Below are positions 1,777-19,012 of a stretch of DNA of 64,000 nt, piece by piece; within the stretch, counting starts at the first letter, position 1, and each line of letters begins with the position of its first letter. The stretch is from assembly GCF_026625705.1 (NCBI RefSeq), contig NZ_CP113059.1, forward strand, positions 3,968,001-4,032,000, read 5' to 3'. The position numbers were made by a program, and so were the translations under genes. This stretch comes from Pedobacter sp. SL55. Lineage in GTDB: Bacteria; Bacteroidota; Bacteroidia; Sphingobacteriales; Sphingobacteriaceae. Below the pieces are notes generated by a model. That model saw nothing but the letters and a program-made list of their open reading frames with translations. It made no database searches and was not told the origin of the DNA.

Positions 1777-3939
1777 ATGAGAAAAATTTTACCTTTTTTT
1801 ATTACTTGTCTCTTATTAATTTCCGGCCAAATTAAAGCCGAAATCTGGTATGTTAGCCCAGGTGGCTCGGGTAACGGGAAAACCAGCTGGGCAAATGCCT
1901 CAGGAAACCTTCAAAACGTAATCGATGCAGCTCAAAGTGGCGACGAGATATGGGTAGCACAAGGCACTTATATACCGACAATAAAGGCTGGAAACGGAAC
2001 TGAAGACAGAGATGTTTCTTTTGTTTTGAAAAGTGGCGTGGCTATTTACGGTGGTTTTTTTGGAAATGAAGCAACTAGGGCAGCAAGAAACCCTACGCTT
2101 TACTTAACCACCCTTAATGGCGATATCAACAATACGCCAACAGACAATACAGATGACGCCTACCATGTTGTAATCTCTGTGGCTAATAACAGCGACACCA
2201 TTTTAGATGGATTTACTATTGAAAAAGGCCATGCCAATGGTACAACGGGTAATATAACTGTTTCTAGTACAGTTGTACCAAGAAACTCCGGTGGTGGTAT
2301 CATGTCCAGATCAAGCGATGCAAAATTTGCAAACCTGATTATCCAGAAAAACTTCTGCTATGGTGGCAATGGTGGGGGCGTCTATTCTTCACCAGGAAAT
2401 CTCACGATAGCCAACACAAAAATCCTTCAGAATGAATCTAGTGTTGCCACAGGTGGCAACGGCACATCGGGCGCTATCTGGATTTCTGGAGCTTCAGGCT
2501 CGATCAACAAAATGACCTTAACTGATGTCACCATAAGTAACAATACTGCAAAGAACAACGGCGGTGCAATCTACATCAACACCTACAGTAACATTACCTT
2601 CAACAACGTGATTTTTGAGAACAACACCACCACAGCCGGACTTGGTGGTGCAATCTACATTACAGGTCTAGCAACGGCCATCAATAACGTAGATTTTAGC
2701 AAAGTGGTTTTCAAAGGCAATACTGCCACAGCAGGATCTGGAGGAGCAATATATATGGGTGCCAACTCAAACTATGTATTCAACGATGCCAGTTTTATCA
2801 AGAACGAAGCTAGACTGTCGGCTGGCGCCCTATTTCTTTTAAAAGGAGCCACAGATGCTGCTTTAACAAATCCTTTGATACGGAACACCATTTTTTACGG
2901 AAATAAAGCACAGAACACTGCTAACGGCGGCGGTGCGGCAGCAATCAGCGGTGCTAACACCAATTTAGTGAATTGTACTTTTTATGAAAATTATGCCAAA
3001 TTTAGAGGAGGAGCAATTAACGTATACAGCGGTGCCTCGGTAGCAATTTATAATTCTATCCTGTTCGCTAATGTAGCTGATGATACCGGAGTTGACATCT
3101 ACAATACAATTGCAGCTGGCACATTGACCAACATAGACCTTAAAAACTCGCTTACACAAGTGGCCGGAACAAATGCCCTTAACGGCAATGTAGTTGGCGC
3201 AAACCCCAACTTTTTTAACCTAGATGAAAATCATCCGTTTTTTCTTCAGCTGGATTATACAACAAGTCCAGCTGTAAATACTGGTTTAAATGCACACTTT
3301 ACCGATGCGCTAACCAGTAAAGATAGAGCTGGTTACGACCGTATCTATGGAGGCACTATAGACATGGGCGCTTACGAAAGCAACCCTGTGGTTTTGCCAG
3401 TTACCCTAGACAGATACGAAGCAAAGCTACTGGATGGCGTAGTGAAACTTACCTGGACTACCCTTTCTGAACGACATAACGATTATTTTTTGATCGAAAA
3501 AAGTGCCGATGGAAAAACATTTGAGACCCTACAAAAAATACCTGCAAAAGGCAACGGCGCAAGTACACAACTATACACCGCACAAGACACGAAACCTTAT
3601 AGCCCTTATACCTATTACCAACTTAAACAGGTAGATTTAGACGGCACTACGAAAAATTATGATGTGCTACGTGTGAAAACACCGATATTGACAAGTAACA
3701 AAGTGAATGTTTATCCAAATCCGGTTACAGCCAACCAACTTAACTTCGCTACCGCCAACAAATCTTTCACAAATGCTAAAATTGTAAACCTATATGGGCA
3801 GGTTGTGAAAGAGTTTACCATCAATACCCAAAACAACAGCAGCGTGGCGCTGGATATTACGGGTCTTTCGCCAAACATTTATTTCTTGCAGTTGCTAGGA
3901 AACAGCCAAAAAGAAACGGTAAAATTTCAAAAACTATAA
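1777..3939 (+). CDS. Secreted right-handed beta-helix protein with T9SS sorting domain
   Basis: This 720-residue exported protein has an N-terminal signal peptide (about residues 1-21, ending IKA). Next comes a DUF1565-like start (WYVSPGGSGNGKTSWANA) and a long parallel beta-helix (about 40-530) rich in GGA-Y/I-N turns, as in polymorphic outer-membrane protein and pectate-lyase-like repeats (for example NNGGAIYIN, GLGGAIYIT, GSGGAIYMG). A beta-sandwich region follows (about 545-640). The C-terminus (about 640-720, VYPNPVTANQ ... NIYFLQLLG) is a type A type IX secretion sorting domain, so the protein should leave the cell through the T9SS and be anchored or released. Substrate is unknown; such folds occur in polysaccharide lyases and in adhesins. 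It stands alone and its link to the nutrient-uptake genes downstream is not shown. Confidence 0.85.
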   Translation: MRKILPFFITCLLLISGQIKAEIWYVSPGGSGNGKTSWANASGNLQNVIDAAQSGDEIWVAQGTYIPTIKAGNGTEDRDVSFVLKSGVAIYGGFFGNEATRAARNPTLYLTTLNGDINNTPTDNTDDAYHVVISVANNSDTILDGFTIEKGHANGTTGNITVSSTVVPRNSGGGIMSRSSDAKFANLIIQKNFCYGGNGGGVYSSPGNLTIANTKILQNESSVATGGNGTSGAIWISGASGSINKMTLTDVTISNNTAKNNGGAIYINTYSNITFNNVIFENNTTTAGLGGAIYITGLATAINNVDFSKVVFKGNTATAGSGGAIYMGANSNYVFNDASFIKNEARLSAGALFLLKGATDAALTNPLIRNTIFYGNKAQNTANGGGAAAISGANTNLVNCTFYENYAKFRGGAINVYSGASVAIYNSILFANVADDTGVDIYNTIAAGTLTNIDLKNSLTQVAGTNALNGNVVGANPNFFNLDENHPFFLQLDYTTSPAVNTGLNAHFTDALTSKDRAGYDRIYGGTIDMGAYESNPVVLPVTLDRYEAKLLDGVVKLTWTTLSERHNDYFLIEKSADGKTFETLQKIPAKGNGASTQLYTAQDTKPYSPYTYYQLKQVDLDGTTKNYDVLRVKTPILTSNKVNVYPNPVTANQLNFATANKSFTNAKIVNLYGQVVKEFTINTQNNSSVALDITGLSPNIYFLQLLGNSQKETVKFQKL

Positions 3940-4037: not shown

Positions 4038-4642
4038 ATGAGCCACATGATACAAGAATCAGAAATATGGGAAAAGTTTAAATCGGGGCATACCAGTTCT
4101 TTTGAATGGATTTACGATCGTTATTCTAAAGAGTTGTTTAAATACGGTTGTGGTTTTTCGTTCGATCAGGATCTGGTAGAAGACTGCATTCAAGAGCTTT
4201 TTACCAGCTTATGGCAAAAGAGAAAGGGTTTAGGCCCAACTACTTCTATCAAATTCTATTTGCTTGGCAGCCTGCGTAGAATGTTGGTAAGAAAAACATC
4301 TCAAAGCAAAAAGAGAGCACTCAACGAAATCGAATTTTACGACGCTTTTCAGCATCAGTCATCTCCAGAAAGTATTTTTATACTCGAAGAGGAAGACGGA
4401 ATCTGCAATATTTGCTGATAACGGCCCTAAATAGTCTTTCTTTTAGGCAACGTGAAGTAATGTACCTACGCTACTATCAAGACATGTCTTTCGATGAGAT
4501 TTCACAAATCATGGAAATTCCAAAGAAAACAGCCTATAATATTGTATTTATTGCTTTAGATGTGCTAAAGAAAAAACTGAACCTTTCTTCTGCAAAACTG
4601 CTCTCGCTTTTGGCTACCCTATTACTAAACCACACAAATTAA
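4038..4642 (+). pseudogene. ECF RNA polymerase sigma factor, frameshifted
   Basis: This is an extracytoplasmic-function sigma-70 factor of about 200 residues in two frames. The first frame (4038 to about 4410) holds region 2 (FEWIYDRYSKELFKYG ... EDCIQELFTSLWQ). The second (from about 4409) holds region 4 with its helix-turn-helix (LNSLSFRQREVMYLRYYQDMSFDEISQIMEIPKKTAYN). One base is missing near 4409, between ...DGICN and LLITALNS; one added base restores a normal-length protein. In Bacteroidetes such factors pair with a FecR anti-sigma and a SusC receptor, and both follow here (8263, 9384), so this gene probably controls the uptake island. Whether the break is real or a base-calling error cannot be told from this window; other genes here are broken in the same way. 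ATG at 4047 is an alternative start. Confidence 0.8.
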
Positions 4643-4745
4643 CGGTTGATATTTTAATCTGCTAAACAAACCCACAAACTATTAAAACGTACCAGCTCAT
4701 TCAACTTTGCTAGACGCTAAAACAATTTACAATATACACACTTCA

Positions 4746-5759
4746 ATGAAACTTAGTTTTAAGAACTTAGAACTGTCGCTCGAATATCCTTTCGGAATAG
4801 CGAGTTACACCCGTACTTCGCACCCCATAGTGAGCATAAGCATCACACAAAACGGAATGGTTGGCTACGGAGAGGCATCAATGGCCAAGTACCTTGGCGA
4901 AACGCAGGAAAGCGTGGGCAACTTCCTTAAAAAAGTAGATCTTTCAAATTTCTGCGCTCAAAACTCGATAGAATCGATAATGACTTATGTAGAAGAACTT
5001 GCGCCCAATAATACTGCGGCTAAAACCGCAATAGATATTGCACTTCACGACCTAAGAGGAAAACTTCTGGGTGTACCATGCTACCAGTTCGTCCAAGCCG
5101 ACCCCAAAAACATGCCTGTTACCTCGCTAACCATTGGTATTGATAACCTAGATATGATTAGAAAAAAGGTAAGGGGCGCAGCAGGTTTCAAGGCGCTAAA
5201 AATCAAATTGGGCAGCCATCAGGATAAAGAAATCATCAATACGGTAAGAGAAGAAACAGAGGTACCCTTGTACATAGATGCAAACCAAGGCTGGACAGAC
5301 AAACATGAGGCTTTAGAAATGATCCACTGGTTGGCAGAGAAAGGCACTGAATTTATAGAACAGCCAATGGATAGGAATAATCGTGACGACAATGCCTGGA
5401 TTACAGCTCATAGCCCCATCCCCATCATTGCCGATGAAGCAATGCAACGTTTATCCGATCTTGAAAATCTCAAAGGCCTGTACCATGGCATCAACATTAA
5501 GCTAATGAAATGTACAGGTTTATTGGAAGCCTCAAAAATCATCAGCAGCGCTAGAGCCCTAGACCTCAAAATCATGGTGGGCTGTATGTCAGAAACTTCC
5601 TGTGGTATTATGGCTGGAGCGGCAATTGCGCCACTTTGCGACTGGGCAGACCTAGACGGCCCGTGGTTAATTACCAATAATCCATTTGAAAAACCAATGC
5701 TGGTAGACGGCAAAATACAACTTAAAAATCAAGCTGGCTTAGGCCTTACACTCCTATAA
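4746..5759 (+). CDS. Dipeptide epimerase (L-Ala-D/L-Glu epimerase type)
   Basis: An enolase-superfamily enzyme of 337 residues. Visible active-site motifs are the KxK pair (ALKIKLGS, about residue 150), the metal ligands Asp (YIDANQGW), Glu (FIEQPMD) and Asp/Glu (IIADEAM), a later catalytic Lys (NIKLMKCTG) and the substrate-specificity motif DLDGPW near the C-terminus. These match the muconate-lactonizing subgroup that epimerizes dipeptides, classically L-Ala-D-Glu from murein to L-Ala-L-Glu. I chose ATG 4746 because family members begin MKLSFKNL; the upstream extension from a TTG at 4707 has no family features. It lies 10 bases before the DUF819 permease and is probably cotranscribed with it. 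The exact dipeptide cannot be read from sequence; the cytoplasmic site and the epimerase class are well supported. Confidence 0.87.
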   Translation: MKLSFKNLELSLEYPFGIASYTRTSHPIVSISITQNGMVGYGEASMAKYLGETQESVGNFLKKVDLSNFCAQNSIESIMTYVEELAPNNTAAKTAIDIALHDLRGKLLGVPCYQFVQADPKNMPVTSLTIGIDNLDMIRKKVRGAAGFKALKIKLGSHQDKEIINTVREETEVPLYIDANQGWTDKHEALEMIHWLAEKGTEFIEQPMDRNNRDDNAWITAHSPIPIIADEAMQRLSDLENLKGLYHGINIKLMKCTGLLEASKIISSARALDLKIMVGCMSETSCGIMAGAAIAPLCDWADLDGPWLITNNPFEKPMLVDGKIQLKNQAGLGLTLL

Positions 5760-5769
5760 ACCTTTATTT

Positions 5770-7014
5770 ATGTCTGAACCAATGATAACCAATGACGCAG
5801 TAGTTTTAGGAATTTTAGTGGTAATTATTGCCTTTGTATTTACCACTTCTTCTGGAAACAGCAGCTTTTTTAAAAAATTCTACACCGTTATTCCTTCAGT
5901 TTTACTTTGTTATTTTATACCAGGATTACTGAACACTTTCGGTGTGATTTCTGGCGAACAATCTAAGCTATATAGCGTAATGTCGCGTTATTTACTGCCA
6001 GCCAGTTTGGTGTTATTTACCATTAGCCTTGATTTTAAGGAAATTTGGAAACTGAGAAACAAAGCTGGAGTGATATTCCTCACGGCATGTATCAGCGTTA
6101 TTATTGGCGGCCCCATCTCTATGTGGATTTTTTCGTTGATCTCTCCAGACACCTTAAAAGGCGAAGGCAGTGATGAGGTTTGGCGAGGATTGTCTACCAT
6201 TGCCGGCTCTTGGATTGGCGGCGGAGCTAACCAGGCTGCCATGTACGAAACCTTTAAACCTAGTGCCAAACTTTATTCTTCGATGATTACCATCGACGTG
6301 ATCATTGCGAACATTTGGATGGCAGTATTATTATATGGAGCCACAATAACCAAAAAGATAGATCGGTTTTTAAAGTCCGACAACTCGGCAATAGACGAAC
6401 TGAAACTAAAGATAGAGCGGTACCAGCTAGATAACATGCGTATACCAAGCACAACCGATATCGTGCTTATTTTAGCCGTAGGCCTAGGTGTAACGGGTTT
6501 TGCTCATTTTCTGTCAGAGCTAATTGTACCGTGGGTAAAACTAAATGCGCCTTATTTAGAAAAATTCAGTTTAACCTCAGATTTCTTTTGGATGGTTGCC
6601 TTGGCCACCATGATGGGTATTTTATTATCGTTTACCAAATTAAGAAACCTGGAGGGAGCTGGAGCATCTCGCATCGCAACGGTTTTCCTTTACATTTTAA
6701 TTGCCAGCATTGGTATGCGTATGGATGTTTTCTCCATATTCGACAGTCCGGGGCTATTGTTTTTATGCTTCATCTGGATCATTATTCATGGAATATGCTT
6801 ATTGGTTATCGCCAAGTTAACCAAAACCCCATTTTTCTTTGTAGCCGTGAATAGTCAGGCTGTAATTGGCGGGGCTGCCTCTGCCCCTATTGTTGCTAGC
6901 GCATTTTACCCATCATTAGCTCCTGTAGGTGTATTAATGGCGATTTTAGGCTATGCCACTGGCACTTACGGTGCCTACCTATGTGGGCTATTGATGCAAA
7001 TGATTCCTCATTAA
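5770..7014 (+). CDS. DUF819 family integral membrane protein (putative transporter)
   Basis: A 414-residue protein with about ten hydrophobic helices, of the DUF819 (YjcL-like) family. Seen are a hydrophobic N-terminus, conserved glycine-rich motifs (STIAGSWIGGGANQAAM about 140-156; SQAVIGGAASAPIVASAFYPSLAPVGVLMAILGYATGTY near the end, divided here across residues 362-400) and a charged cytoplasmic loop (about 195-225). The function of this family is not established; gene context with dipeptide epimerases suggests an inner-membrane carrier for peptides or amino acids. It follows the epimerase by 10 bases and is followed after 5 bases by the beta-lactamase-fold lipoprotein, which fits one operon. 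Confidence 0.82.
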   Translation: MSEPMITNDAVVLGILVVIIAFVFTTSSGNSSFFKKFYTVIPSVLLCYFIPGLLNTFGVISGEQSKLYSVMSRYLLPASLVLFTISLDFKEIWKLRNKAGVIFLTACISVIIGGPISMWIFSLISPDTLKGEGSDEVWRGLSTIAGSWIGGGANQAAMYETFKPSAKLYSSMITIDVIIANIWMAVLLYGATITKKIDRFLKSDNSAIDELKLKIERYQLDNMRIPSTTDIVLILAVGLGVTGFAHFLSELIVPWVKLNAPYLEKFSLTSDFFWMVALATMMGILLSFTKLRNLEGAGASRIATVFLYILIASIGMRMDVFSIFDSPGLLFLCFIWIIIHGICLLVIAKLTKTPFFFVAVNSQAVIGGAASAPIVASAFYPSLAPVGVLMAILGYATGTYGAYLCGLLMQMIPH

Positions 7015-7019
7015 CAAAT

Positions 7020-8196
7020 ATGATGTATAGCATTGGAAGATTTCTGAACTTAAAACTGCTATTCGCTATTACGATGGCTATGGCAGTTTTTACGTCTTGC
7101 AGCAAAAAAAACACTGCTATCAAAGAAACAGTAGTGATTGAGCCTGTGCCAAGCACTCAGTTTTCGAACAATGCCTTAGCGTCTGATTTAGATAGGCTAA
7201 TTGATTCTATTTTTAGGCCGCTGATGCTCAAAAGTAGCAGCGTAGGTTTAAGTATCGGAATTTTAAAAAATGGTACAGCTTCTTTTTATGGCTACGGCAC
7301 CATCGCAAAAAACAGCAAACAATTGCCAAACGAAAACACCGCATTCGAAATTGGATCTATCTCTAAAACTTTTACGGCAGCCATGATTGTTAAATTTCTT
7401 CAAGAAAAAGGATTGACGATAGAAGCACCCATTGGCAGGTTTTTACCAAAAGATATACCAGTGCTTCAATTAAATGGCGAAGAAATAAAGTTTAAGCATT
7501 TGCTCAACCACACTTCTGGGATACCACGCCTACCTGACGATATTGGTGTTGGCACCAACGCAGTGGATCCATACGCTATTTATGATACCTTAAGGCTTTA
7601 CAGTTACTTAAAAACAGCCATACCATTAAGCACACCAGGACGAACCTATCTATACTCTAATTTGGGATTTGGCATACTCAGTACCATTTTGGAGAGAAAC
7701 ACGCAGATATCATTCGCAGAAAAATTGATTACCGACCTGAGCGAACCCTTAGCTTTATCGAGAACCAGATCTAAAATAACAGAATACAGCAGTAACCTCT
7801 CTTACGGCTATGACGACAGGGGCTACCAAACTCCCTATTGGGACGGAAATGATAAAGGTGCATTTAAAGGTGCCGGATCTATCTACTCAACTGCTTATGA
7901 TTTAATTAGATACGCTAAAGAATATATAGCACCAACCAACAGTAACATTACGCCATTATTTACACAATGCGAGCAACAGACTTTCATATCTGGCAACACA
8001 CGTGTAGGCCTGGCATGGAACCTAAAAAAACTATAACAATATCCCCTGTCTTTATCACAATGGTGCAACCAGCGGCTACGGAGCTTACTTAGTAATTAGC
8101 AAGGCCAAAGGAATTGCCATTATTACGCTGATGAACAATACAGACGAAGACATTTACCGAAGAACAGAATTTTTAGCACTGAGACTGATCAGATAA
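7020..8196 (+). pseudogene. Beta-lactamase-fold serine hydrolase lipoprotein, frameshifted near its end
   Basis: A class C beta-lactamase/DD-peptidase-fold hydrolase of about 390 residues. The Met at 7020 (or 7023) gives a lipoprotein signal (MAVFTSC, lipid-bearing Cys). The catalytic SxxK is seen as GSISKTFTAAM and the Tyr motif as YLYSNLGFG. The first frame stops at 8036 just after GLAWNLK. The second frame continues N-Y-N-N-I-P-C-L then YHNGATSGYGAYLVISKAKG to a stop at 8194-8196, supplying the third motif (HNG in place of KTG). The break is at a run of seven A (8024-8030); six A would keep one frame, which is typical of a homopolymer error. It may cleave peptides containing D-amino acids, in keeping with the epimerase and permease just upstream. 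Confidence 0.82.
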
Positions 8197-8262: not shown

Positions 8263-9303
8263 ATGGATTACAGAGATTATAAAACTTTAGATTTTGCAAC
8301 AGATGATTATTTCATTACCTGGGTTAAAACCCCAGATGAACAGAATAATGATTTCTGGAACAGCTTTTTAAAGGAAAACGAACATAAAGCCGCAGAAGTG
8401 AAACAAGCCAAGCGCCTTATCTTAGCAATGAACACCAAGCCTATTACCTGGGACCTGAACAGACAGGCCATGCTTAAAAAAAGGGTAATGGCCAATGTGA
8501 ATGCGCAGACTAACCGGAGCAATTTTTCTTTAAAACGAACCATTTTAAGAAGAGTAGCTATCGTTGCTTCTGCTTGTACAGCTGTAGCCGCTTGTTTTTT
8601 GATAAGTATTCCAGTATTTTCTGAACAGGCAACCTTTAAAACTGGAAAAAACCAAACTAAAGAAATTGTACTTCCAGATGGTTCTAGCGTGGTAATGAAT
8701 GCGAATACTAGTTTATCGTACCAAAGAAATTGGTGGAGCAGCAAAAGAAACACAGAATTGAACGGCGAAGCATTTTTTAAGGTTAAACACGATGACCACT
8801 CGGTTTTTACAGTACATTATGGCAAGCTATACGCAAAGGTTTTGGGTACTTCTTTCAATATTAAAGCATATAACGATTTGAGCGAAGCTCGTGTGACAGT
8901 AATTAGTGGAAAGGTGGAAGTTGGCGATATGAATGGAAAATTTGACCTGATTACTCCTAATAAAGAGAATATCTATCAGAAGAAAACAGACAAACATTTA
9001 ACAAGACTGGTAGATGCCCAAAAAGTAGCCAACTGGAGCAGCAACGAAATTAACCTCTTTGATGTGCCTTTCTCTGAAATGATTTTTACCTTGGAAAATT
9101 TATATAACGTAAAAATCGATTGTCCGCAAAGTATTTTGGATGCAGCAGACCATACAACAATCCACTTCAAAAAAACCGACAAGATTGAAAATGCGCTGGG
9201 CATCATCTGCCTCATCCACAATCTCGATTACAAAATCAATAAACCAAACCATATTACCCTATCGGTATTTAAACCAAAACAACAACCATCTCCTTTACCT
9301 TAA
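8263..9303 (+). CDS. FecR-type anti-sigma factor
   Basis: A 346-residue inner-membrane anti-sigma factor. It has a cytoplasmic N-terminal part (about 1-85) that would bind the sigma factor, one transmembrane helix (about 92-112, VAIVASACTAVAACFLISIP), a periplasmic FecR domain (about 120-225, KEIVLPDGSSVVMNANTSL ... RVTVISGKVEVG) and a C-terminal DUF4974-like region (about 255-335). In Bacteroidetes this protein senses the loaded SusC receptor through the receptor's STN domain and frees the ECF sigma factor. The receptor with an STN domain starts 80 bases downstream and the sigma gene is 3.6 kb upstream; several enzyme genes stand between sigma and anti-sigma, which is an uncommon order. Confidence 0.9.
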   Translation: MDYRDYKTLDFATDDYFITWVKTPDEQNNDFWNSFLKENEHKAAEVKQAKRLILAMNTKPITWDLNRQAMLKKRVMANVNAQTNRSNFSLKRTILRRVAIVASACTAVAACFLISIPVFSEQATFKTGKNQTKEIVLPDGSSVVMNANTSLSYQRNWWSSKRNTELNGEAFFKVKHDDHSVFTVHYGKLYAKVLGTSFNIKAYNDLSEARVTVISGKVEVGDMNGKFDLITPNKENIYQKKTDKHLTRLVDAQKVANWSSNEINLFDVPFSEMIFTLENLYNVKIDCPQSILDAADHTTIHFKKTDKIENALGIICLIHNLDYKINKPNHITLSVFKPKQQPSPLP

Positions 9304-9383: not shown

Positions 9384-12300
9384 ATGTTTATTCGTAAAAC
9401 AGGTAAAGAAAACTACTTTACCAGCTCATTTATTGTCCTTTTTTTTGCCATACTTGTTCTTAGTAATATGTTACTGGCCAATTTAGCCAAAGCTCAGGGG
9501 CTAGAAACCAGATTAAATATTACCATAAAGAAAAGTTAGCTGAAAGAAGCACTCGCTAGTATAGCGCAAACTGCCGGCGTAAAGTTTTCGTACAATTCTA
9601 CCGATTTGAACAAATACAATACGGTAGCAAAAACGTACGCCAATCAAACCCTTAATCAGATCTTGAACCAATTGTTAGCTAATACCGATCTGATCCATCA
9701 GCAAACCAAAAGCTCTATTGTGATCTTTAAAAAAGGCAACAAAACGGTTTCTTTGTTACCCAACACCCAAGACCAGATAGTGGTAAATGGAAAAGTTTCT
9801 GACAGAGCAGGTCCAATGCAAAGTGTAATGGTAAAAGAAGAGGGCCTTTCCAATGCAGTTGCCACAAATGCCGAAGGTGGGTTTAGCATAAAAACTAGAC
9901 CTAACGCTACGCTAGTATTTACTTTTATTGGCTATGTAACACAAAGAATAAAGGTTGTAGAAGGCAAATTTCTTGACATTAAAATGCTTGCCGATAGCAA
10001 AGTGCTTGATGAAGTGATGGTGGTAGGCTATGGCACTAAAAAGAAAGCTGCTTTTACTGGAGCGGCCACAACCTTAGATACCAATGTGCTGTCTAACTCG
10101 CCAAGGGCAAGTTTCGCAGAAAGCTTTCAGGGTAATGTACCTGGCGTAATGAGCGTGAGCGGCGACGGTGTCTTGGGGAGCGCATCAGACGTAACGATTA
10201 GAGGTTTGGGCTCATATTCTGCAAGCAATGCCCCTTTGTATGTGATAGATGGTGTACCTATTATCAACGCTGATGTGTCTGGCTATAATACCAGCACTTT
10301 ATCTGCGGTAAACAGTGAAGATATCGAATCTATAACCATATTAAAAGATGCCTCTGCTACTTCTATCTATGGATCAAGGGGTGCCAACGGTGTTATCATT
10401 ATTACCACTAAACAAGGCAGACCTGGCAAAACTACATTTACAGCAACAGCACAGGGTGGGGTAAACCAATATACTATCCCTGAAAGTTCTAGACCGCTAA
10501 ATACCACCGAAATGTTGCAGCTATTAAGGGAAGGATGGAACAATAGCGGACGTAATCCGGGCGGATTTGCCCAAGCAGTAGCCGATGCTGGAATAGATTA
10601 CACTGTTAGCACCGATTGGTTAAAACAGGTCATGCAAATTGGAAATTTCCAACGCTATAACATTTCGGTAAATGGCGGTAACGACCGAACCAAGTTTTTT
10701 TCCTCCTTTGGTCTATACAATTCTGAAGGTGCGCAGAAAGGTGTAGACTATAATCGTTTTAACGGCCGTTTAAATATTGAAAACAAGGCAACCGATAAAT
10801 TAACCTTTACAGGCAGTATTTCTGGCGCTTATCAAGTAACTAACTCTACATTGAGAAGTGGTTTGGCCGCCAACCCTACCCGTTCTTCGTTTAGGTTGCA
10901 ACCTTGGTTAAAAGTAAGGAATGATGATGACTCCTACGATCTTAGCTATTATATCTCTGGTTTCAATCCTGTGGCCATTATCGAAAACAACATTTACAGG
11001 GCCAACACACTTTCTGCGCTAGGAAGTGTTGGCGCAACTTATAAGATTATCCCCGAGCTTACCTTCGAAAGCAAGGCATCTGCCGAATTTATCTACTCGG
11101 ACCGGAAGCTTTTTTATGCTCCTGGTTTCGGCGATGGATTAAATGTAAACGGACGAGGCGTTTTTGGCACAACCAAACATATCAATTGGTCGGCTACTAA
11201 TATTTTAAGGTATACAAAGAGGTTTAATCAAAAACATGACCTTAATGCTTATGTAGGTTACGAGGCGCAGAAAGTATCGAGAACATTTGGAGACGCAACT
11301 GCCACTAATTTTTTACCGAACACCAATACACTGGCCAACGCTTCGGTATTAACTTCTATCACTTCTGGCGAAGCTGAAAATGCTTTAAACTCAGTTTTTC
11401 TAAACTCCAGCTATTCTTTCGATAACAAATATTATATCGATGCATCGGTAAGAAGGGATGGTTCTTCTAGATTTGGCAGGCAAAACAGATTCTCTAATTT
11501 CTGGTCTGCAGGTTTAGCCTGGAACATTTTACAAGAAAAATTTCTGCGTAATTCTAGACTATTTAACCAGTTAAAAATACGTAGCAGCTACGGCACTAGC
11601 GGGAACCAAGAAATTGGCGATTTTGTAGCCCTACCCCTATACACCTCAGGCAATGATTACAACGGCCAGCCAGGCTACGCATTTTCGCAATATGAAAACC
11701 CAATGCTTACTTGGGAATCGGCCAAACAATTTGATGTGGGAATGGAGTTTAAGATCTTAAAAAGCAGAATCTCGGGTACCATAGATTATTTTGTAAGGCG
11801 AACTGATGGTCTTTTGTATAATCTTCCGATTTCTTCTACCAATGGCACCACCACGTTTACGGATAACCTTGGCGAAATTAAAAACTCGGGTTTTGAAGTG
11901 GACTTGAACTTCTTGAACATCAAACCAGCTAATGCTAATGGACTTTCTTGGCGTACCAATGTCAATTTTACCACCTTTAAAAATAGGATTTTAAGGTTAG
12001 AAACCTCTTTCGAAGATCAGGAACTGGCTCTAAATTCTTTTACATTGGCAACCTATGCAGGTGTAGATCCACTAAATGGAGAATCTTTATGGTACACCAA
12101 TTCGAGCAGAACCGCTACCACTAACGATTGGTCTAGGGCAGGTAGATCTGTACAAGGCACAGCACTTCCAAAATTTTATGGTGGCCTTACCAATACATTT
12201 TCTCTTAAGCGTTTTACTTTTAGTTTCTTAATTTATTACAATTTTGGCAATAAAGTACTAGAAACCTACGGACCAACCATCAATACAGATGGCTCTGTAG

Positions 12301-12677
12301 GTTTTGGCGATGTAGGCGCAATGACCCGTTATACCTACAACAACCGCTGGCAAAAACCCGGCGATGTTACCGATGTACCTAAAATAGTGTTCTTAGGTAG
12401 CCAAAGTGGTCTCTCGAACCAAACCTCCACACGTTTTCTATACAATGGTGGATTTGTGAGGCTAAGGGACGTGCAGTTCAGTTATCTCTTTCCAACCGAC
12501 CTTAGCAAAAAACTGAAAGTATCAAGAATTAGCACCTTTATTAAAGCCAACAATCTGCTTACCTGGAAAGAAGATAAGCGCCTACAGTTTGACCCACAGG
12601 TTTCTACTTCGGGACAGTTGGATTTTAAGCCACCGGTATTCAGAACCTTAACTTTAGGCATTACCATACAACCTTAA
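9384..12677 (+). pseudogene. SusC/RagA-type TonB-dependent outer-membrane receptor with STN domain, in-frame amber codon
   Basis: A SusC-family receptor of 1097 residues if one internal stop is read through. From ATG 9384 the order is a signal peptide (ending NLAKAQG), an STN (secretin/TonB N-terminal) domain for signalling to FecR, a carboxypeptidase-regulatory-like beta-sandwich (VVNGKVSDRAGPMQSVMVKEEG), a plug domain (TTLDTNVLSNSPRASFAESFQG ... LYVIDGVPI ... TSIYGSRGANGVIIITTK) and a 22-strand barrel. A TAG at 9537-9539 interrupts the STN domain between ITIKKS and LKEALASIAQ; family members usually have Gln there, so a C-to-T change from CAG is likely. An alternative start beyond the stop would lack signal peptide and STN, so it could not be exported. 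Normally susD follows directly; here four repeat lipoproteins come between. Confidence 0.88.
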
Positions 12678-12686
12678 ATTTTTGAG

Positions 12687-13256
12687 ATGAAAAGAGCTTT
12701 TAATTATATCATGATCTTAGTTACATTGCTTTCATTTGGCTGCACTAAGAACGAAAACAAGCCGTGTTGCGAAGACATCCCACTATATTACCAAATGGGT
12801 GCTGTACCTAAAATGTACAACAAAATGGCCGTTACCCCAGAAACACAGCAAGCCATGTCTACAGAATTTAAAACAAAATGGGACAAAGCAGTGGCTGATC
12901 TAGAATTGATAGGTGGGAGAAGATTAAGAAGTTTTGACCTTAATTTTATTAGCGACAACCAACTTACCATTACCTACAGCTATACCCTTACTACTGGTGG
13001 ACTTGCAAGAGCCGTGGTTTATTATAATTACGTGGTAGATAATAGAGGTTATCTTCAAATTTCTTATGCCAGCAGAGATGCAAACGGAAGGGTAATTGCA
13101 CCCGGCATCTTCCCTATTCAAGAAGATTATCTAGAAAGGTACAAATTCCGAATAGATTGGATTGAAGATAAAATACCTGGTTCTACAGGCAAAACCGCTG
13201 CATATTATAAAGACGGCGATGCAACATCTTATTTCTACGGTTCAATAATAAATTAA
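12687..13256 (+). CDS. Lipoprotein with one copy of an unknown repeat domain
   Basis: A 189-residue lipoprotein (LLSFGC, lipid-bearing Cys about residue 19). After a short linker it consists of a single domain of about 165 residues. Landmarks shared with its three neighbours are Q-M-G near the start, VTPET, F-x-x-KW-x-x-A, GGRRLRSF, LTI-x-YxYxLTTGG, YxYVVDxxGYL, DYLERYKFRIDWIEDKIPGS, and SYFYGSI at the end. I do not recognise the domain. It starts 9 bases after the SusC stop and ends 2 bases before the next paralogue, so it is surely part of the receptor operon. Being surface- or periplasm-anchored and next to SusC/SusD, it may be an accessory ligand-binding lipoprotein; that is inference. 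Confidence 0.85.
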   Translation: MKRAFNYIMILVTLLSFGCTKNENKPCCEDIPLYYQMGAVPKMYNKMAVTPETQQAMSTEFKTKWDKAVADLELIGGRRLRSFDLNFISDNQLTITYSYTLTTGGLARAVVYYNYVVDNRGYLQISYASRDANGRVIAPGIFPIQEDYLERYKFRIDWIEDKIPGSTGKTAAYYKDGDATSYFYGSIIN

Positions 13257-13258
13257 AC

Positions 13259-14799
13259 ATGAAAAAGATTTTAACCAACATCATTATATTGCTACTACTA
13301 TTAGGTACTAGTTGTAAAAAGGAAGTGAAGACCGAATTAGAAATGGTACCCTTGGCACCACAAATGGGTGCATTACCCTTTAAATATACGTCGATTAATG
13401 TAACGCCCGCCAAGGCTACAAAGGCGGCATCTGCCGATTTCCAACAACGCTGGAATACTGCAAAATCCGAGCTATCCAAAATAGGTGGTCGCTCTTTGGA
13501 GCGTTTTTTCATCAAATATGTAGACGAAACTACGCTATCCATCACTTTTTATTACCTCACTACCGGAGGCGACCTTACCGCAGCTACCTTCAAATACAAC
13601 TATACCCTTAATGCAGAAAGGGCATTTAAACTTGCGCTTATTGGTAGCGATGAAAATGCCAAGACCATTAAAAATTCGTTGTCCTCTTTAACTACCGACT
13701 ATCTAGAAAAGTATGAATTTAAACCTACTTGGATAGAAGATAAAATCAAAGGCTCTTACGAACTATTAGGAGCTTTCTATCGTACAGACGATACTGCATC
13801 GTATTTCTACGGCTTAGTGGGGGTATTAGACCAAGCAAACGATACCAGTGACGATGCTCCGCTATATACCCAGATCGGTGTATCAAAGAAATTTCAGAGC
13901 ATAGAGATCACCCCAGAAACTACCTTAGATCTTCAATCTTCGGATTTTAAAGCGAGATGGCTATTAGCGAAAGAAAGACTATTACTTAACGGCGGCAGAC
14001 AACTTAAAAGCTATGCCATCAATATCATTTCGGGCACCCAGCTTACTATTGTAGTCACTTACCTTACCAGCGCCGGGGCTACCGTTTCGGGTACGTTTAC
14101 CTACAATTACCAGTTCTCCGATAGAGGCTACCTTACCTTGAGCCTGTTTTCCAAAAATGCCAATGCCAATGCTATCGAACCTTCTTTAGTAAGCGTTTTA
14201 GATGAATATATCCATGCACATCCTTTTAGGATAGATTGGTTTGATAATGTGATACCAGGCTCTAAAGGCAACATCGCGGTACTTTACAATAACAACGATC
14301 CAACTTCTTATTTCTACGGAAACCTAATTGCCATACCTTTATATACAGAAATAGGTTTTGGCAAAAAGTATACTACGTTAACCGTACTCCCTGAAACCGA
14401 TAATGCCGCCCTTTCTTCAGATTTTCTTACCCGTTGGAATTTGGCAAAAAATACACTTTACAACAACGGTGGAAGTAGGCAATTAAGAAGCTTTGCCATG
14501 AGATTTACCAGCGCAAGCCAACTTACCTTAACCTTTACCTATCTTACTTCTACGGGTTCCAATACTACGGGTGTGTTCAATTATACCTATACGATAAGTA
14601 ATCAGGGGTTACTTAAATTAACCTTTGTGATACTAACGCCAATGGTGGTGCTTTGGCTCCTCATATAGGCAGCATTACCACCGATTACTTGAACAATTAC
14701 CAGTTTAGTGTAGATTGGTTTAGGGGATCTTCTACACAGGCAGCTTATACCGTTGCAAATGACCCAACTTCTTATTTTTATGGCACTTTAAGTAATTAA
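13259..14799 (+). pseudogene. Lipoprotein with three copies of the unknown repeat domain, frameshifted in the third
   Basis: A lipoprotein (LLGTSC signal) of about 513 residues once a single frameshift is repaired. It holds three tandem copies of the domain of the preceding gene: residues about 30-185, 200-360 and 362-513, each opening with P-L-x-x-Q/E-I/M-G and closing with SYFYG. The first frame runs to 14668. Near 14626 one base is lost (acctttgtgat, possibly a fourth T), after which a second frame gives DTNANGGALAPHIGSITTD, then DYLNNYQFSVDWF, and ends SYFYGTLSN at 14799, 3 bases before the next gene. The repaired end is convincing because it restores every landmark of the repeat. Internal duplication of the domain, as well as gene duplication, shows the family expanding in place. 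Function unknown. Confidence 0.83.
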
Positions 14800-14802
14800 A
14801 CG

Positions 14803-15372
14803 ATGAAAATTAAATTAAACATCCTTCTCCTAGTTACTTGTTGTTGGTTATTTACAGCTTGTAAGAAAAAACAAGAAACTGAGCCAGAAGACAACTCCCC
14901 AGTTGCACAACAAATGGGATTTAACAAAAAGTATACAAGCTTAACGGTAACGCCGCTAAGTGCAACCGAGTCAGCTTCACAAGATTTCCTCAATCGTTGG
15001 TATACAGCAAGAAGTAACACTTATACCAATGCAGCAGGTAGGCAAATAGATAGCTTTGTAATTCGTTTCATTAGCGAAAACCAGCTTACAATGACTTTAT
15101 CTTACCGTTTTGATACAGGTATAGCAACGGCATTATTCACTTATGATTATGTGAGAGATGCCGATGGCAACATCACAATGTCTTTATCGGCAACCAATAC
15201 CAATGCCGATACCTTGGCACCTTACCTCACAACGTTAACCACAGACTATCTTTCTAAATACAAGTTTAAGATAGATTGGATAACAGACAAACTCCCCAAT
15301 TCAAAGCCCCTCATTGCGGCATTTTACCGCACCGACAATGTGGATTCTTATTTCTATGGTACTATTAATTAA
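14803..15372 (+). CDS. Lipoprotein with one copy of the unknown repeat domain
   Basis: A 189-residue lipoprotein (CCWLFTAC signal) with one copy of the repeat domain: QQMGFNKKYTSLTVTPLS, FLNRWYTARS, GRQIDSF, LTMTLSYRFDTG, YDYVRDADGNI, DYLSKYKFKIDWITDKLP, SYFYGTIN. It is the same length as the first member of the cluster. A Glu/Pro-rich linker (KKKQETEPEDN) follows the lipid-bearing Cys. It starts 3 bases after the repaired end of the three-domain paralogue and is followed after 6 bases by the fourth. Function unknown; the same inference about ligand handling applies. Confidence 0.85.
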   Translation: MKIKLNILLLVTCCWLFTACKKKQETEPEDNSPVAQQMGFNKKYTSLTVTPLSATESASQDFLNRWYTARSNTYTNAAGRQIDSFVIRFISENQLTMTLSYRFDTGIATALFTYDYVRDADGNITMSLSATNTNADTLAPYLTTLTTDYLSKYKFKIDWITDKLPNSKPLIAAFYRTDNVDSYFYGTIN

Positions 15373-15378
15373 ACAAGC

Positions 15379-15924
15379 ATGAAGATCAACTATTTTTATA
15401 TCATTTTATCAGCATTCATCATTGGCTTCAATTCTTGTTCGAGTGTTAAAACAAGTATGGTAGATCAATTTGGACCGAACAAGAGTTACTCTTCTATTAC
15501 TTTAGAGGGAAGCGAGCTTAATGGTTTTTCTACCGACGTTGCGCCCAAATGGGTGGCCGCAGAAAAAGAAGTTTTTAAAACCGGCAGCCGAAAATTGAAC
15601 AGACTGGTTATAAAATTTACCAAACCAGACGAATTGGATCTCATTTTCATTTACTCGCCACCAACGGGTGGAAACGCAACGGCCACTTTTACCTATACCT
15701 TTACCAAAGACGAGAAAGGAAATATCAGTTTAAGCTTGGCCAATAAAAATGCCAATGCCAAATTGCTCTCTGCAGCTGTTAGCGGCCTAACGGTAGATTA
15801 TTTTGAGAAATATAAATTTAAACTTGATTGGGCTACCAAGATTGTACCTGGCTCGTACGGAACTTTAGCAGGTTTGTTTAATGCCGAAAATCCGACTTCG
15901 TATGTCTATGGTAAAATCAATTAA
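15379..15924 (+). CDS. Lipoprotein with a diverged copy of the unknown repeat domain
   Basis: A 181-residue lipoprotein (FNSC signal) and the most diverged member of the cluster. It keeps FGPNKSYSSITLEG, VAPKWVAAEKE, GSRKLNRL, LDLIFIYSPPTGG, TFTYTFTKDEKGNISLSLANKNANAK, DYFEKYKFKLDWATKIVPGSYG and SYVYGKIN, but replaces the Q-x-G opening with DQFGPN, GGR by GSR and SYFYG by SYVYG. It ends 23 bases before the SusD start. The divergence suggests an older duplication with its own ligand or role. Function unknown. Confidence 0.83.
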   Translation: MKINYFYIILSAFIIGFNSCSSVKTSMVDQFGPNKSYSSITLEGSELNGFSTDVAPKWVAAEKEVFKTGSRKLNRLVIKFTKPDELDLIFIYSPPTGGNATATFTYTFTKDEKGNISLSLANKNANAKLLSAAVSGLTVDYFEKYKFKLDWATKIVPGSYGTLAGLFNAENPTSYVYGKIN

Positions 15925-15947
15925 CAGCTAAATTTAACCTATTGTAC

Positions 15948-17390
15948 ATGAAAACTTCATTCAACATAGCTAGACTTAAATTCGCATTAGTAGCCACTAT
16001 CTTTTTGGCTTCCTGTTCTAAAAACTTTTTAGAAATCGACCCAAAACAAGACACCAATGCCAACATAGCTGTAGTAGATCTTCCTACCATGAAGGCCGCC
16101 CTTAACGGGATCTACAGCCAACTGCAAAGCGAAGATTACTACGGAAGAACATTTATTGTGGCTCCAGAATTGCTTTCCAATAATGGCATGCTTAGCGTGA
16201 TCAACTCGGCACGCTATACCAACATTAACCTAAATACTGTGGTTTCTACCGATACGCATATTACCGGGCTTTGGAACGTACTTTACTGTACGGCCATTAA
16301 CGCAAACCTTTTGATTTCGAATGGAGAGCAGCTTAGCTTCTCTGGGGCAAACCTCACAACAAGCCGCCAGTATTTGGGCGAGGCTTATGCTTTAAGGGCC
16401 TTGGCCTATTTTGATTTGGTTAGGGCTTTTGCGCAACCTTATGATCAAACTGCAGATGCATCGCATTTAGGCGTTCCGTTAGTATTAGAAAGTGGCATTT
16501 CAAAAGAAGACATTGCCAAACCAGCCCGAAACACCGTGGCCGAAGTATACAAAAGTATCATCGATGATTTAGAAAAGGCAATTATGCTATTTGCGTCTCA
16601 AAGTCCGCAAAGTCCGTCATATTTGGGTTTAAATGGCGCCAAGGCCTTACTATCAAGAGTATATCTTTACCAAGGCGACTGGCCTAATGCAGAGCGATTG
16701 GCTACTGAAGTGATTGGCAGTGGAAAGTATCAATTACTGAGCAACACCAGCTTATTGAGCAACTTTAAAGTAAAAGCCAACCCAGAAGTGATTTTTGAAG
16801 TAGCCAACAATACTGCAGATAACGCCGGAACAGGGTCTTTAGCCTATTTCTGTATGCAAGCTGGTTACGGCGATATGATTGGTACCGAAGATTTGTATAA
16901 CAACTACAGCGCAACTGATGTAAGAAGAGCTTTTGTAACCAAAGCAAAAAGAGATCGCGTAGGTGGCGAGAACCCAGCTTACGTGATTAGTAAATACACC
17001 GAAATTAGCACCTACGAAGAAAATATCAAAGTAATTAGGTTAGCGGAAGTTTACCTCATTAGAGCCGAAGCAAGAGCTAGGCAAATTGGAAAAGAGAGCT
17101 TAGCGCAAGACGATCTATTTTTGGTTGCTTCTAGGGGCGATATAAATGCCATTAGGTCTACTTCGTCAGGCACCTTATTGATCAACGAAATTTTGAAAGA
17201 AAGAAGAAAGGAATTAGCTTTCGAAGGTCATCAGCTTTTTGACCTGAACAGAACACGTACCAACTGGACCAAATTCCGTTCTAATGATGGCACCACAGCA
17301 TATACAGCCCGCTCTAACAGAACAATTTTCCCTATTCCAAGACGCGAGACCAGTCTTAACCCAAACATCAGACAAAATACTGGATACTAA
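15948..17390 (+). CDS. SusD/RagB-type outer-membrane nutrient-binding lipoprotein
   Basis: A 480-residue SusD-family lipoprotein (ATIFLASC signal). It has the typical start CSKNFLEIDPKQD, the N-terminal TPR-like helices (MKAALNGIYSQLQSEDYYG ... YLGEAYALRALAYFDLVRAFAQPY), and the C-terminal RagB motif (ILKERRKELAFEGHQLFDLNRT ... IFPIPRRETSLNPNIRQN). It caps the SusC barrel on the cell surface and binds the substrate. I chose ATG 15948; a TTG two codons earlier gives no benefit. The separation from susC by four lipoprotein genes (3.3 kb) is unusual. The following hydrolase starts 12 bases downstream. Confidence 0.92.
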   Translation: MKTSFNIARLKFALVATIFLASCSKNFLEIDPKQDTNANIAVVDLPTMKAALNGIYSQLQSEDYYGRTFIVAPELLSNNGMLSVINSARYTNINLNTVVSTDTHITGLWNVLYCTAINANLLISNGEQLSFSGANLTTSRQYLGEAYALRALAYFDLVRAFAQPYDQTADASHLGVPLVLESGISKEDIAKPARNTVAEVYKSIIDDLEKAIMLFASQSPQSPSYLGLNGAKALLSRVYLYQGDWPNAERLATEVIGSGKYQLLSNTSLLSNFKVKANPEVIFEVANNTADNAGTGSLAYFCMQAGYGDMIGTEDLYNNYSATDVRRAFVTKAKRDRVGGENPAYVISKYTEISTYEENIKVIRLAEVYLIRAEARARQIGKESLAQDDLFLVASRGDINAIRSTSSGTLLINEILKERRKELAFEGHQLFDLNRTRTNWTKFRSNDGTTAYTARSNRTIFPIPRRETSLNPNIRQNTGY

Positions 17391-17401
17391 ATCAATAAAC
17401 C

Positions 17402-19012
17402 ATGCCAAACACTTTAAAATCATATTTCATTGCTGCATTATTTATTGTCTATTTACCCATTGCAGCTTCGGCACAAACGGCTACCGAGCTAAAAGAACTG
17501 GATAACATTTTTCAAAATTTCAATAGCGGTTCGCGTGCCCCTGGTGGAGTAATTACCGTTGGCAAAAATGGCAATGTCTTTTTTAACAAAGCTGCTGGAT
17601 CTGCTGATTTAGAACACGAAATTGCTAATACACCCGAAACCAGGTTCGAGGCTGGATCTGTTTCTAAGCAATTTACATCTACTGCGGTATTATTGCTCAT
17701 TGAATCTAACAAGGTAGGTTTAGAAGATGAGGTAAGAAAATACATTCCAGAGTTACCAGACTACGGTAAGCCACTTTTGGTTAAACACCTCTTGCTCCAC
17801 ACCAGCGGTTTAAAAGATTGGGGCTCTATTTACGCCATCACAGGATGGCCAAGAGGCACCAAAGCATATACACAAGACGATGCAAGGGCAATGATCTTTA
17901 AACAAAAGACCTTGAATTTTTTGCCAGGGGAAGCCTATTCCTACAGCAATTCTAACTTTACCTTATTGGCAACGTTGGTAGAAAAAGTGAGTGGCATGTC
18001 ATTCAACGAATTTACCAAGCAAAACATCTTTATTCCTATCGGGATGAATGATACCCAGTGGCGTGATAACTTTAGGGCAATCGTTAAAAATAGAGCCATA
18101 GGTTACCAAGCCAGCGGCAAAGATTATCTACAGGATATGCCCTTCGAAAATACACATGGCCATGGCGGATTAATCACTACAACCACAGATATGCAGAAGT
18201 GGTTAAACTACTGGAACGAAAACAAGTTCGGCAAGAAACTGACTGAACTGCGCAATACCCAAGGTATCCTTAACAATGGACAACAGATTGAATATGCCCT
18301 AGGTGGTGTTTTTGTAAAAAAATTTAATGGCCTCACAGAAATATCACATAGTGGCCTTACTGCCGGTTACAGGGGATGGATGGCTTGGTATCCGGAAAAA
18401 GGCATTACCGTTACCTGCTTAAGCAATGGCGCCACACTACCATCTAGCCAAATCAAAGATGTTTTTTTGGGAAAAGAGGCTAGCAAAACAGGAAAGAGAG
18501 GCTCAGCGCTACCACAAAACTTAATAGACCAACTACCCGGTCTTTACAAGAGTGTTAGGGGCTACAGCACCTTAGAAATAGTAAAAAAAGAAAACAGGAT
18601 CTTTATGAAAACTGGCGCAGAGGTACTTGCGCTAAACGGCGATACCCTTACTACCGGATCAAGGAAAATATATCCTGAAAGAGATGCCAGAAAGTTTCTT
18701 TCTATCATTGGTACCGATACACTAAGCTTTGTTAAGATAGAGCGGAAAGATCTTAACGCTGCAGAACTAAACAAATACATCGGTAATTACTACAGCCGCG
18801 AATGTGACACCAAAATAGAAGGGGTTCTAAAAGGCCAACAGCTTTTTGCCCTGCGTAATGCGGAACCTCCAATTAAACTTCAGCCAGTATACAATGGCGT
18901 TTTCAATATGGCGGGCATATTACTCGACTTCAATTCCCCAACAAATAACAGCGGTTTTAGTGCTAATGTAGATCGGGCGCAACAGGTTATTTTTGATAAA
19001 ACCAAACCTTAA
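17402..19012 (+). CDS. Secreted beta-lactamase-fold serine hydrolase
   Basis: A 536-residue exported hydrolase (signal peptide ending AASAQT). The class C beta-lactamase/D-aminopeptidase catalytic domain spans about residues 30-360 with SxxK in GSVSKQFTSTAV, the Tyr motif in YSYSNSNFTLL, and HSG in EISHSGLTAGYRGW taking the place of KTG. A C-terminal beta-rich region (about 385-530) resembles the lipocalin-like tails of D-aminopeptidases. Substrates of this fold include beta-lactams, D-Ala-D-Ala peptides, D-amino-acid amides and esters. Twelve bases after SusD, it is most likely the last gene of the uptake island and acts in the periplasm or on the surface. It is distinct from the lipoprotein homologue at 7020 (different length and anchor). 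Confidence 0.85.
   Translation: MPNTLKSYFIAALFIVYLPIAASAQTATELKELDNIFQNFNSGSRAPGGVITVGKNGNVFFNKAAGSADLEHEIANTPETRFEAGSVSKQFTSTAVLLLIESNKVGLEDEVRKYIPELPDYGKPLLVKHLLLHTSGLKDWGSIYAITGWPRGTKAYTQDDARAMIFKQKTLNFLPGEAYSYSNSNFTLLATLVEKVSGMSFNEFTKQNIFIPIGMNDTQWRDNFRAIVKNRAIGYQASGKDYLQDMPFENTHGHGGLITTTTDMQKWLNYWNENKFGKKLTELRNTQGILNNGQQIEYALGGVFVKKFNGLTEISHSGLTAGYRGWMAWYPEKGITVTCLSNGATLPSSQIKDVFLGKEASKTGKRGSALPQNLIDQLPGLYKSVRGYSTLEIVKKENRIFMKTGAEVLALNGDTLTTGSRKIYPERDARKFLSIIGTDTLSFVKIERKDLNAAELNKYIGNYYSRECDTKIEGVLKGQQLFALRNAEPPIKLQPVYNGVFNMAGILLDFNSPTNNSGFSANVDRAQQVIFDKTKP

Follow-up and report, generated by a model that had tools for sequence, protein, structure and literature searches.

Four consecutive lipoprotein genes of Pedobacter sp. 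SL55, flanked by susC and susD on the same strand, carry one, three, one and one copies of a single domain. The locus belongs to a 64,000-nucleotide stretch of the genome (contig NZ_CP113059.1, positions 3,968,001 to 4,032,000), here called the window, from whose first letter all unprefixed positions below are counted. Sequence comparison indicates that the domain is the unannotated C-terminal region, about 160 residues long, of two widespread partner lipoproteins of SusCD importers, the Mx1 (TIGR04549/PF15890) and DUF4302 (PF14135) proteins. What would such a domain be doing, freed of its usual partners and multiplied? The explanation that we favour, at a probability of about 0.52, is that the lipocalin-like barrels of the four lipoproteins capture ligands at the cell surface and hand them to the SusCD importer, the usual homologues being the binding module of Mx1 and DUF4302.

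In this mechanism, repeated barrels would be carried on outer-membrane lipoproteins (what we observe is gene order, domain homology, a multi-copy protein that is conserved and a fold prediction; we infer their surface exposure, their binding and their substrate class) and the captured ligand would be passed from the barrels to the importer. In most relatives, the barrel would serve as C-terminal binding module of an Mx1 or DUF4302 lipoprotein, in the way that carbohydrate-binding modules stand behind enzymes. The window barrels, which have no partner domain, would form a capture array of one, three, one and one beads, comparable to surface binding proteins in polysaccharide loci. SusE, SusF and the surface glycan-binding protein (SGBP) of the levan utilisome are also non-catalytic lipoproteins with serial domains in a SusCD operon, and a capture role is presumed for the window proteins too. 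The levan SGBP combines Ig-like domains with a sugar-binding domain (PMC7618045, partial text), whereas the window proteins repeat one lipocalin-like barrel, and unlike the SGBP genes of polysaccharide loci the array lies between SusC and SusD. The initial annotation had proposed accessory surface binding proteins: an accessory binding role fits, with surface exposure and binding still presumed.

Four lipoproteins and one repeated domain

The array begins behind a SusC-type TonB-linked outer-membrane transporter (9606..12677, + strand; TIGR04056 699 bits, with Plug and barrel Pfam matches) and ends ahead of a SusD-type lid lipoprotein (15942..17390, +; PF07980 83 bits, PF14322 79 bits). Between them on the + strand lie gene 1 (12687..13256, domain about 12774-13253), gene 2 (13259..14799, copies about 13343-13822, 13859-14332 and 14333-14799, with the open reading frame (ORF) stopping at 14668), gene 3 (14803..15372, domain about 14896-15369) and gene 4 (15379..15924, domain about 15448-15921), the last carrying the most divergent copy. 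Successive spacings from SusC to SusD are 9, 2, 3, 6 and about 20 bases, the 3 being measured from the stop of the gene 2 tail at 14797-14799, and gaps this small make a single operon likely. Each of the four genes has a lipobox-like N-terminus, as judged by eye, and consists of a signal peptide and domain copies with nothing else. Against Pfam and NCBIfam they match no enzyme profile, nor PF15890, TIGR04549 or PF14135. By gene order, N-termini read by eye and profiles, they resemble SGBPs in being lipoproteins of a SusCD operon with no catalytic domain.

Searched against its own genome, gene 1 finds the other copies at E-values of 2e-38, 5e-37, 3e-33, 2e-23 and 5e-16, plus the split tail of gene 2 at 1e-8, and nothing beyond the window copies at E up to 1; chance similarity is therefore excluded. 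The six copies first counted in the four genes are borne out by this search, with the reservation that a frame break in this assembly divides the last of the three in gene 2. Under a profile that includes them, the window copies score E 2e-13 to 2e-42. Identity to the gene 1 copy is 29-42%, gene 4 being at 29%; the motifs first described, ending in SYFYG, are right on average; gene 4 has LDW...SYVYG.

The domain was described at the outset as unrecognised, and so it is: Pfam and NCBIfam gave no significant match (best E 0.016). The NCBIfam matches to Riean_0653 (E 0.016-0.064, 14-16 bits against a cut-off of 57; spans 1-118, 1-56 and 1-116) fall short of significance and were discarded. A search of Protein Data Bank (PDB) sequences with the domain profile gave a best E of 0.045, and a single-protein search among 5.8 billion proteins returned the query itself only. 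Relatives were reached only with an alignment or the three-copy gene as query. Genome contigs scanned with gene 1 yielded no relative (the scan may omit the window's own genome), and a plasmid search gave no match. Structure prediction and fold comparison had been recommended by the initial annotation. The AlphaFold2 (AF2) model of gene 1 has a pLDDT of 96.5 and moderately matches lipocalin-like barrels, namely 4qrl (BACUNI_01346), ToxS and fibrillin 5. These moderate matches suggest that the predicted fold is a small lipocalin-like barrel, set apart from those proteins by an identity of only 7-13% and by two long helices.

A shared tail of Mx1 and DUF4302 lipoproteins

In a protein search of 59 genomes, the domain was present in 19: this genome, 18 of the 35 others of the genus and 0 of the 23 outside it. 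Matches outside this genome fall in the C-terminal third of open frames of 439-483 amino acids (aa). Pfam assigned ten matching proteins equally to DUF4302 and Peptidase_Mx1 (five each), and in these the Pfam domain ends at residue 258-301, ahead of the shared domain. The Mx1 protein tested belongs to TIGR04549, "substrate import-associated zinc metallohydrolase lipoprotein". Similarity between the window copies and the tails of both kinds of protein spans the full domain. Matches to the solved Mx1 structures 4l7a and 9urd stop at query residue 276-279, ahead of the domain, and DUF4302 proteins searched against PDB sequences gave a best E of 0.095.

With a 20-row profile that includes the window copies, matches were found in 84 of 145 genus genomes and in 120 of 399 family genomes, about 62 of them of the same genus. 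Among the matches listed outside this genome, frames are 435-532 aa long except in G088 (144 aa), G312 (129 aa) and G326 (211 aa), whose short isolated copies look like remnants. Matches in other genomes of the genus led us to reject the idea that the domain is private to this one, nor is it peculiar to this place, since it also makes up the C-terminal part of Mx1 and DUF4302 lipoproteins. This genome itself has no DUF4302 match at E 0.001, and its one Mx1 match is weak (26.6 bits, in a 149-aa frame), lacks the domain and lies behind another SusCD pair. That locus (L184:8960-12426) comprises the SusCD pair, a 248-aa ORF with no Pfam match, the short frame overlapping it that weakly matches Mx1, and a met-zincin of the DUF4953 type; the domain is absent there.

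Mx1 and DUF4302 lipoproteins are, like the window proteins, partners of SusCD, and the same C-terminal domain is found in 58 of 78 Mx1 proteins and in 64 of 84 DUF4302 genes or pieces in the loci examined. They differ in architecture and place. In Mx1 the metallohydrolase domain comes first and the gene follows SusD, whereas the window proteins lack that domain and lie between SusC and SusD; in DUF4302 lipoproteins the DUF4302 domain comes first and the gene follows Mx1, whereas the window domain stands behind no other domain.

Operon order and the place of the array

Gene order was surveyed with an Mx1-plus-domain alignment as query, in the best 80 of 545 relatives, where Mx1 is present by construction. 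These relatives include Pedobacter, Chitinophaga, Niastella, Niabella, Pontibacter, Sphingobacterium and others. The order SusC-SusD-Mx1-DUF4302 was found in 75 of the 80. Five loci depart from it: SusC and SusD are fragmented in L124, SusC is fragmented at the locus end in L163, L146 lacks a called DUF4302, and in L157 and L159 an antisense ORF was called at the Mx1 position. In these best 80 loci, 58 Mx1 and 64 DUF4302 proteins carry the domain, and 20 frames of each kind show no match to it; one domain-only frame, in L121, runs off the locus end. SusD directly follows SusC in 77 of 80 cases; among the remaining three SusC genes, one is broken and two have the next gene cut by the locus end. 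Regions fetched around domain matches agree: among seven in the genus, six are Mx1-DUF4302 SusCD operons and one is a remnant (L103), and seven further regions in the family are all SusCD operons, including four with the two-copy proteins described below. The initial annotation had asked whether homologues always lie between or next to SusC and SusD; SusCD operons are indeed their setting, three apparent remnants excepted, with the Mx1 and DUF4302 genes placed after SusD and not between.

The insertion of genes between SusC and SusD, initially flagged as unusual, is confirmed as such within this genome. There, 37 of 38 SusD profile matches end 1.2-2.1 kb behind the end of SusC, as adjacent genes would, and the window pair, at 4.7 kb, is the sole exception (two of the 38 are pieces of one gene, and the comparison used 45 of 57 SusC rows, 12 fragments being left out). 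The orthologue tier of the window SusC (804-866 bits, 42-45% identity) extends over 19 other genus genomes, with five candidates scored per genome. In each of the 12 orthologous loci fetched, SusD immediately follows SusC, and a six-frame search at E 0.1 revealed no domain copy. Relative to these domain-free loci with adjacent SusD, the array looks like an insertion. Behind SusC-SusD, orthologous loci often have a gene of 366-386 aa, which in L085 (L085:12549-13667) is a calcineurin-like phosphoesterase and has similar counterparts in L086-L091, L094 and L095; the label "phosphoesterase" comes from a single Pfam scan (L085) and from similar gene length elsewhere. Such loci are a different setting for a transporter related to the window SusC.

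The main rival to ligand capture is docking, in which the domain would anchor partner lipoproteins at the SusC lip and the free copies would act as assembly scaffolds or occupy the same docking sites. We regard it as rather doubtful. It would explain why a single type of operon has one domain in both of its partner proteins, which otherwise differ, and the extra lipoproteins of the levan utilisome do sit on the SusC lip (PMC7618045, partial text). However, 20 of 78 Mx1 proteins from the same type of operon show no domain match, and the conserved three-copy and two-copy proteins described below would be better explained by avidity for a ligand.

Free-standing relatives and the age of the array

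Outside the window, free-standing relatives are rare: P0002 with one copy, the partial P0006, and P0007 and P0008 with three copies each. P0002 is a 190-aa single-copy lipoprotein 57-58% identical to gene 1, and P0006 is 81% identical to gene 2. Trees were built from a set of 123 detected domains, 13 of which were dropped as open-ended or below 45 bits and four left out by hand (L110, L149, L169, L175); alignment A4 joined the 106 others to five window copies and P0002, and a later tree of the free-standing clade used 34 of those 106 with 27 others. All 15 free-standing domains group in a single clade (98/98), in which gene 1 groups with P0002 (100/99) and copies 2a and 2b of gene 2 with positions 1 and 2 of P0006-P0008 (96/92 and 96/95). 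For copy three of that gene, the tree gives no clear pairing with position 3 of P0007 and P0008. Placement of the clade relative to the Mx1 and DUF4302 tails is weak, 65/74 in one tree and not resolved in the other.

Orthology of this kind, position by position, implies that the multiplication predates the split of these lineages. On these sequence trees the array is old, with a three-copy protein retained since then. Recent expansion was therefore rejected, the clade and its orthology being older, and the "expanding" family initially envisaged is one whose multiplication is old and common to other lineages (P0006-P0008). The same result bears on the idea that the proteins are decoys or variable surface antigens, directed against phage or competitors. 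Divergence among the copies, which differ from the gene 1 copy at 58-71% of positions, would suit such a role, yet copies 1, 2a and 2b are stable enough to have positional orthologues in other lineages, and relatives of the domain are importer-partner proteins. No evidence was found for the copies being decoys of one another, as had been speculated, and we consider this explanation very improbable.

Neighbouring genes and possible cargo

Upstream of the transporter, on the + strand, are an extracytoplasmic function (ECF) sigma factor (4038..4642, with regions 2 and 4 in different frames), lying ahead of the epimerase-type gene and FecR, then an enolase-superfamily (epimerase-type) enzyme (4707..5759), a DUF819 membrane protein that may be an inner-membrane transporter (5770..7014; PF05684 277 bits), a serine hydrolase of the PF00144 family (6981..8036; 131 bits) and a FecR-type anti-sigma factor (8263..9303; PF04773, PF16344). 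Another serine hydrolase, of the beta-lactamase/penicillin-binding family (17402..19012, +; PF00144 200 bits), follows SusD. All nearest models of the epimerase-type enzyme are below cut-off (DgcA 216 bits against 400; L-Ala-D/L-Glu epimerase 129 against 500), and the nearest NCBIfam model of the hydrolase behind SusD is D-aminopeptidase (140 bits against 443). The two PF00144 proteins were rejected as resistance genes, being far below resistance-enzyme cut-offs. Adjoining the locus is a 720-aa beta-helix protein with a type IX secretion tail (1777-3939, +; PF18962), and at the window edge a serine-recombinase-type protein (30-1208, +; PF07508, zinc ribbon below cut-off), from which a mobile element may border the locus.

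A second multi-copy kind occurs in other genera of the family, in four proteins (L195, L196, L197, L198) with two domain copies each. In L195, L196 and L198 the copies are preceded by an N-terminal stretch resembling DUF4843 (25-29 bits against a cut-off of 34.5), which L197 lacks. Their genes come directly after SusD and are followed by genes similar to the window serine hydrolases (for L195, confirmed by Pfam as PF00144). An epimerase-type gene is found in addition at L195, and a peptidase of M81/MlrC type at L196. Two Mx1 proteins (L200:5392-7377 and L201:9107-11122) have two C-terminal copies and are followed by DUF4302 and a serine hydrolase.

The genes around the window SusCD (epimerase-type enzyme, DUF819, two PF00144 hydrolases, FecR) are in part those of the L195-type loci. 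The window SusC also falls within a 10-row clade (100/99) that includes L197 and L092, the latter ordered epimerase-type, SusC, SusD, hydrolase, M19 dipeptidase, hydrolase, OPT oligopeptide transporter, hydrolase. In the best 80 of 545 Mx1 loci such company is scarce: a PF00144-type hydrolase above 80 bits in six of 80, always upstream and in Chitinophaga or its kin, and an epimerase-type gene in none. Hydrolases and epimerase-type neighbours, here and at the two-copy loci, suggest a cargo of peptides, perhaps with D-residues, such as cell-wall peptides, the enzyme names being those of nearest models below cut-off. Weighing against this is the finer branching within the clade, where the window SusC joins the phosphoesterase-type loci (85/72, weak) and not L092 and L197. 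A more specific version of the capture hypothesis, that the barrel is the peptide-capture module of Bacteroidota importers and forms here a multi-bead array serving an importer whose cargo is D-residue or cell-wall peptides, is accordingly regarded as less probable than not.

Peptide import by such systems has precedent, as RagAB and BT2261-64 bind oligopeptides (PMC7782687, partial text). Both are SusCD systems like that of the window, for which peptide cargo is a guess, and BT2261-64 has extra lipoproteins of unknown role; no relation to the domain was seen in the extra lipoproteins, no PDB chain matching its profile (best E 0.045).

Could the ligand instead be a metallophore, haem or something else related to metal? 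A Riemerella anatipestifer cluster containing a zinc metallohydrolase, RagB and SusC (B739_0096-0103) is listed in a study of iron limitation with changes between about +3 and +3.8 (PMC5429918, partial text), which favours that view of an Mx1-SusCD cluster. BT3958-59 and BT3961 (DUF4302) appear in a table of iron-responsive genes with a negative change as tabulated (PMC10434189, partial text), and iron may be involved in Mx1 operons. The predicted lipocalin-like fold and the ECF sigma-FecR neighbours could also be cited in its favour. ECF-FecR pairs, however, are a general feature of Bacteroidota SusCD loci, the window locus has hydrolases and an epimerase-type enzyme, and none of the scanned window proteins looks metal-related. 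A metal-related ligand is accordingly judged unlikely.

Frame breaks

Several genes of the locus are interrupted as assembled. In gene 2, copy 3 loses its frame after some 100 residues, and the C-terminal half of the copy, including SYFYG, lies in another frame with a stop at 14797-14799. The SusC ORF is called from an internal TTG, with an in-frame TAG upstream at 9537-9539, and the C-terminal end of the 6981..8036 hydrolase appears by eye to run on in another frame. Far from the locus, a housekeeping Clp ATPase (59629-62132, -) occupies two frames, with a main part of 750 aa and its D2-small tail in the other, and an outer-membrane barrel protein (51956-54378, -; PF14905) is cut off from its CarboxypepD_reg N-terminus by a frame break. 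Because these distant genes are broken alike, most breaks are read as probable assembly errors, which is the likeliest account of gene 2 as well. Two of its orthologues, P0007 and P0008 (529 and 517 aa), have three complete copies.

Broken frames in the sigma factor, one hydrolase, the SusC N-terminus and gene 2 could also mean that the region is decaying or mis-assembled and the array a relic with no present function, as the remnant-like short copies in three other genomes might lead one to think. Yet the similar breaks in the Clp ATPase and barrel genes suggest faults of assembly, the frames of genes 1, 3 and 4 are open and the orthologues P0002, P0007 and P0008 are intact, so there is little to recommend a relic.

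Significance

Our literature searches found no description of a C-terminal domain common to Mx1 and DUF4302, and no mention of PF15890, PF14135, TIGR04549 or Peptidase_Mx1. Partial texts on DUF4302 and metallohydrolase proteins yielded no statement of operon cargo, and searches on muropeptides with SusCD, lipocalin-like proteins with SusCD and genes between susC and susD returned nothing usable. The Mx1-DUF4302 SusCD operon is nevertheless widespread in Bacteroidota, with at least 545 relatives. One domain behind both of its partner proteins, together with a free-standing lineage, provides a small, confidently folded piece for direct cargo tests. If the importer works, the SusC and SusD genes of such a system need not adjoin, and a lipocalin-like module would join the known kinds of surface capture protein.

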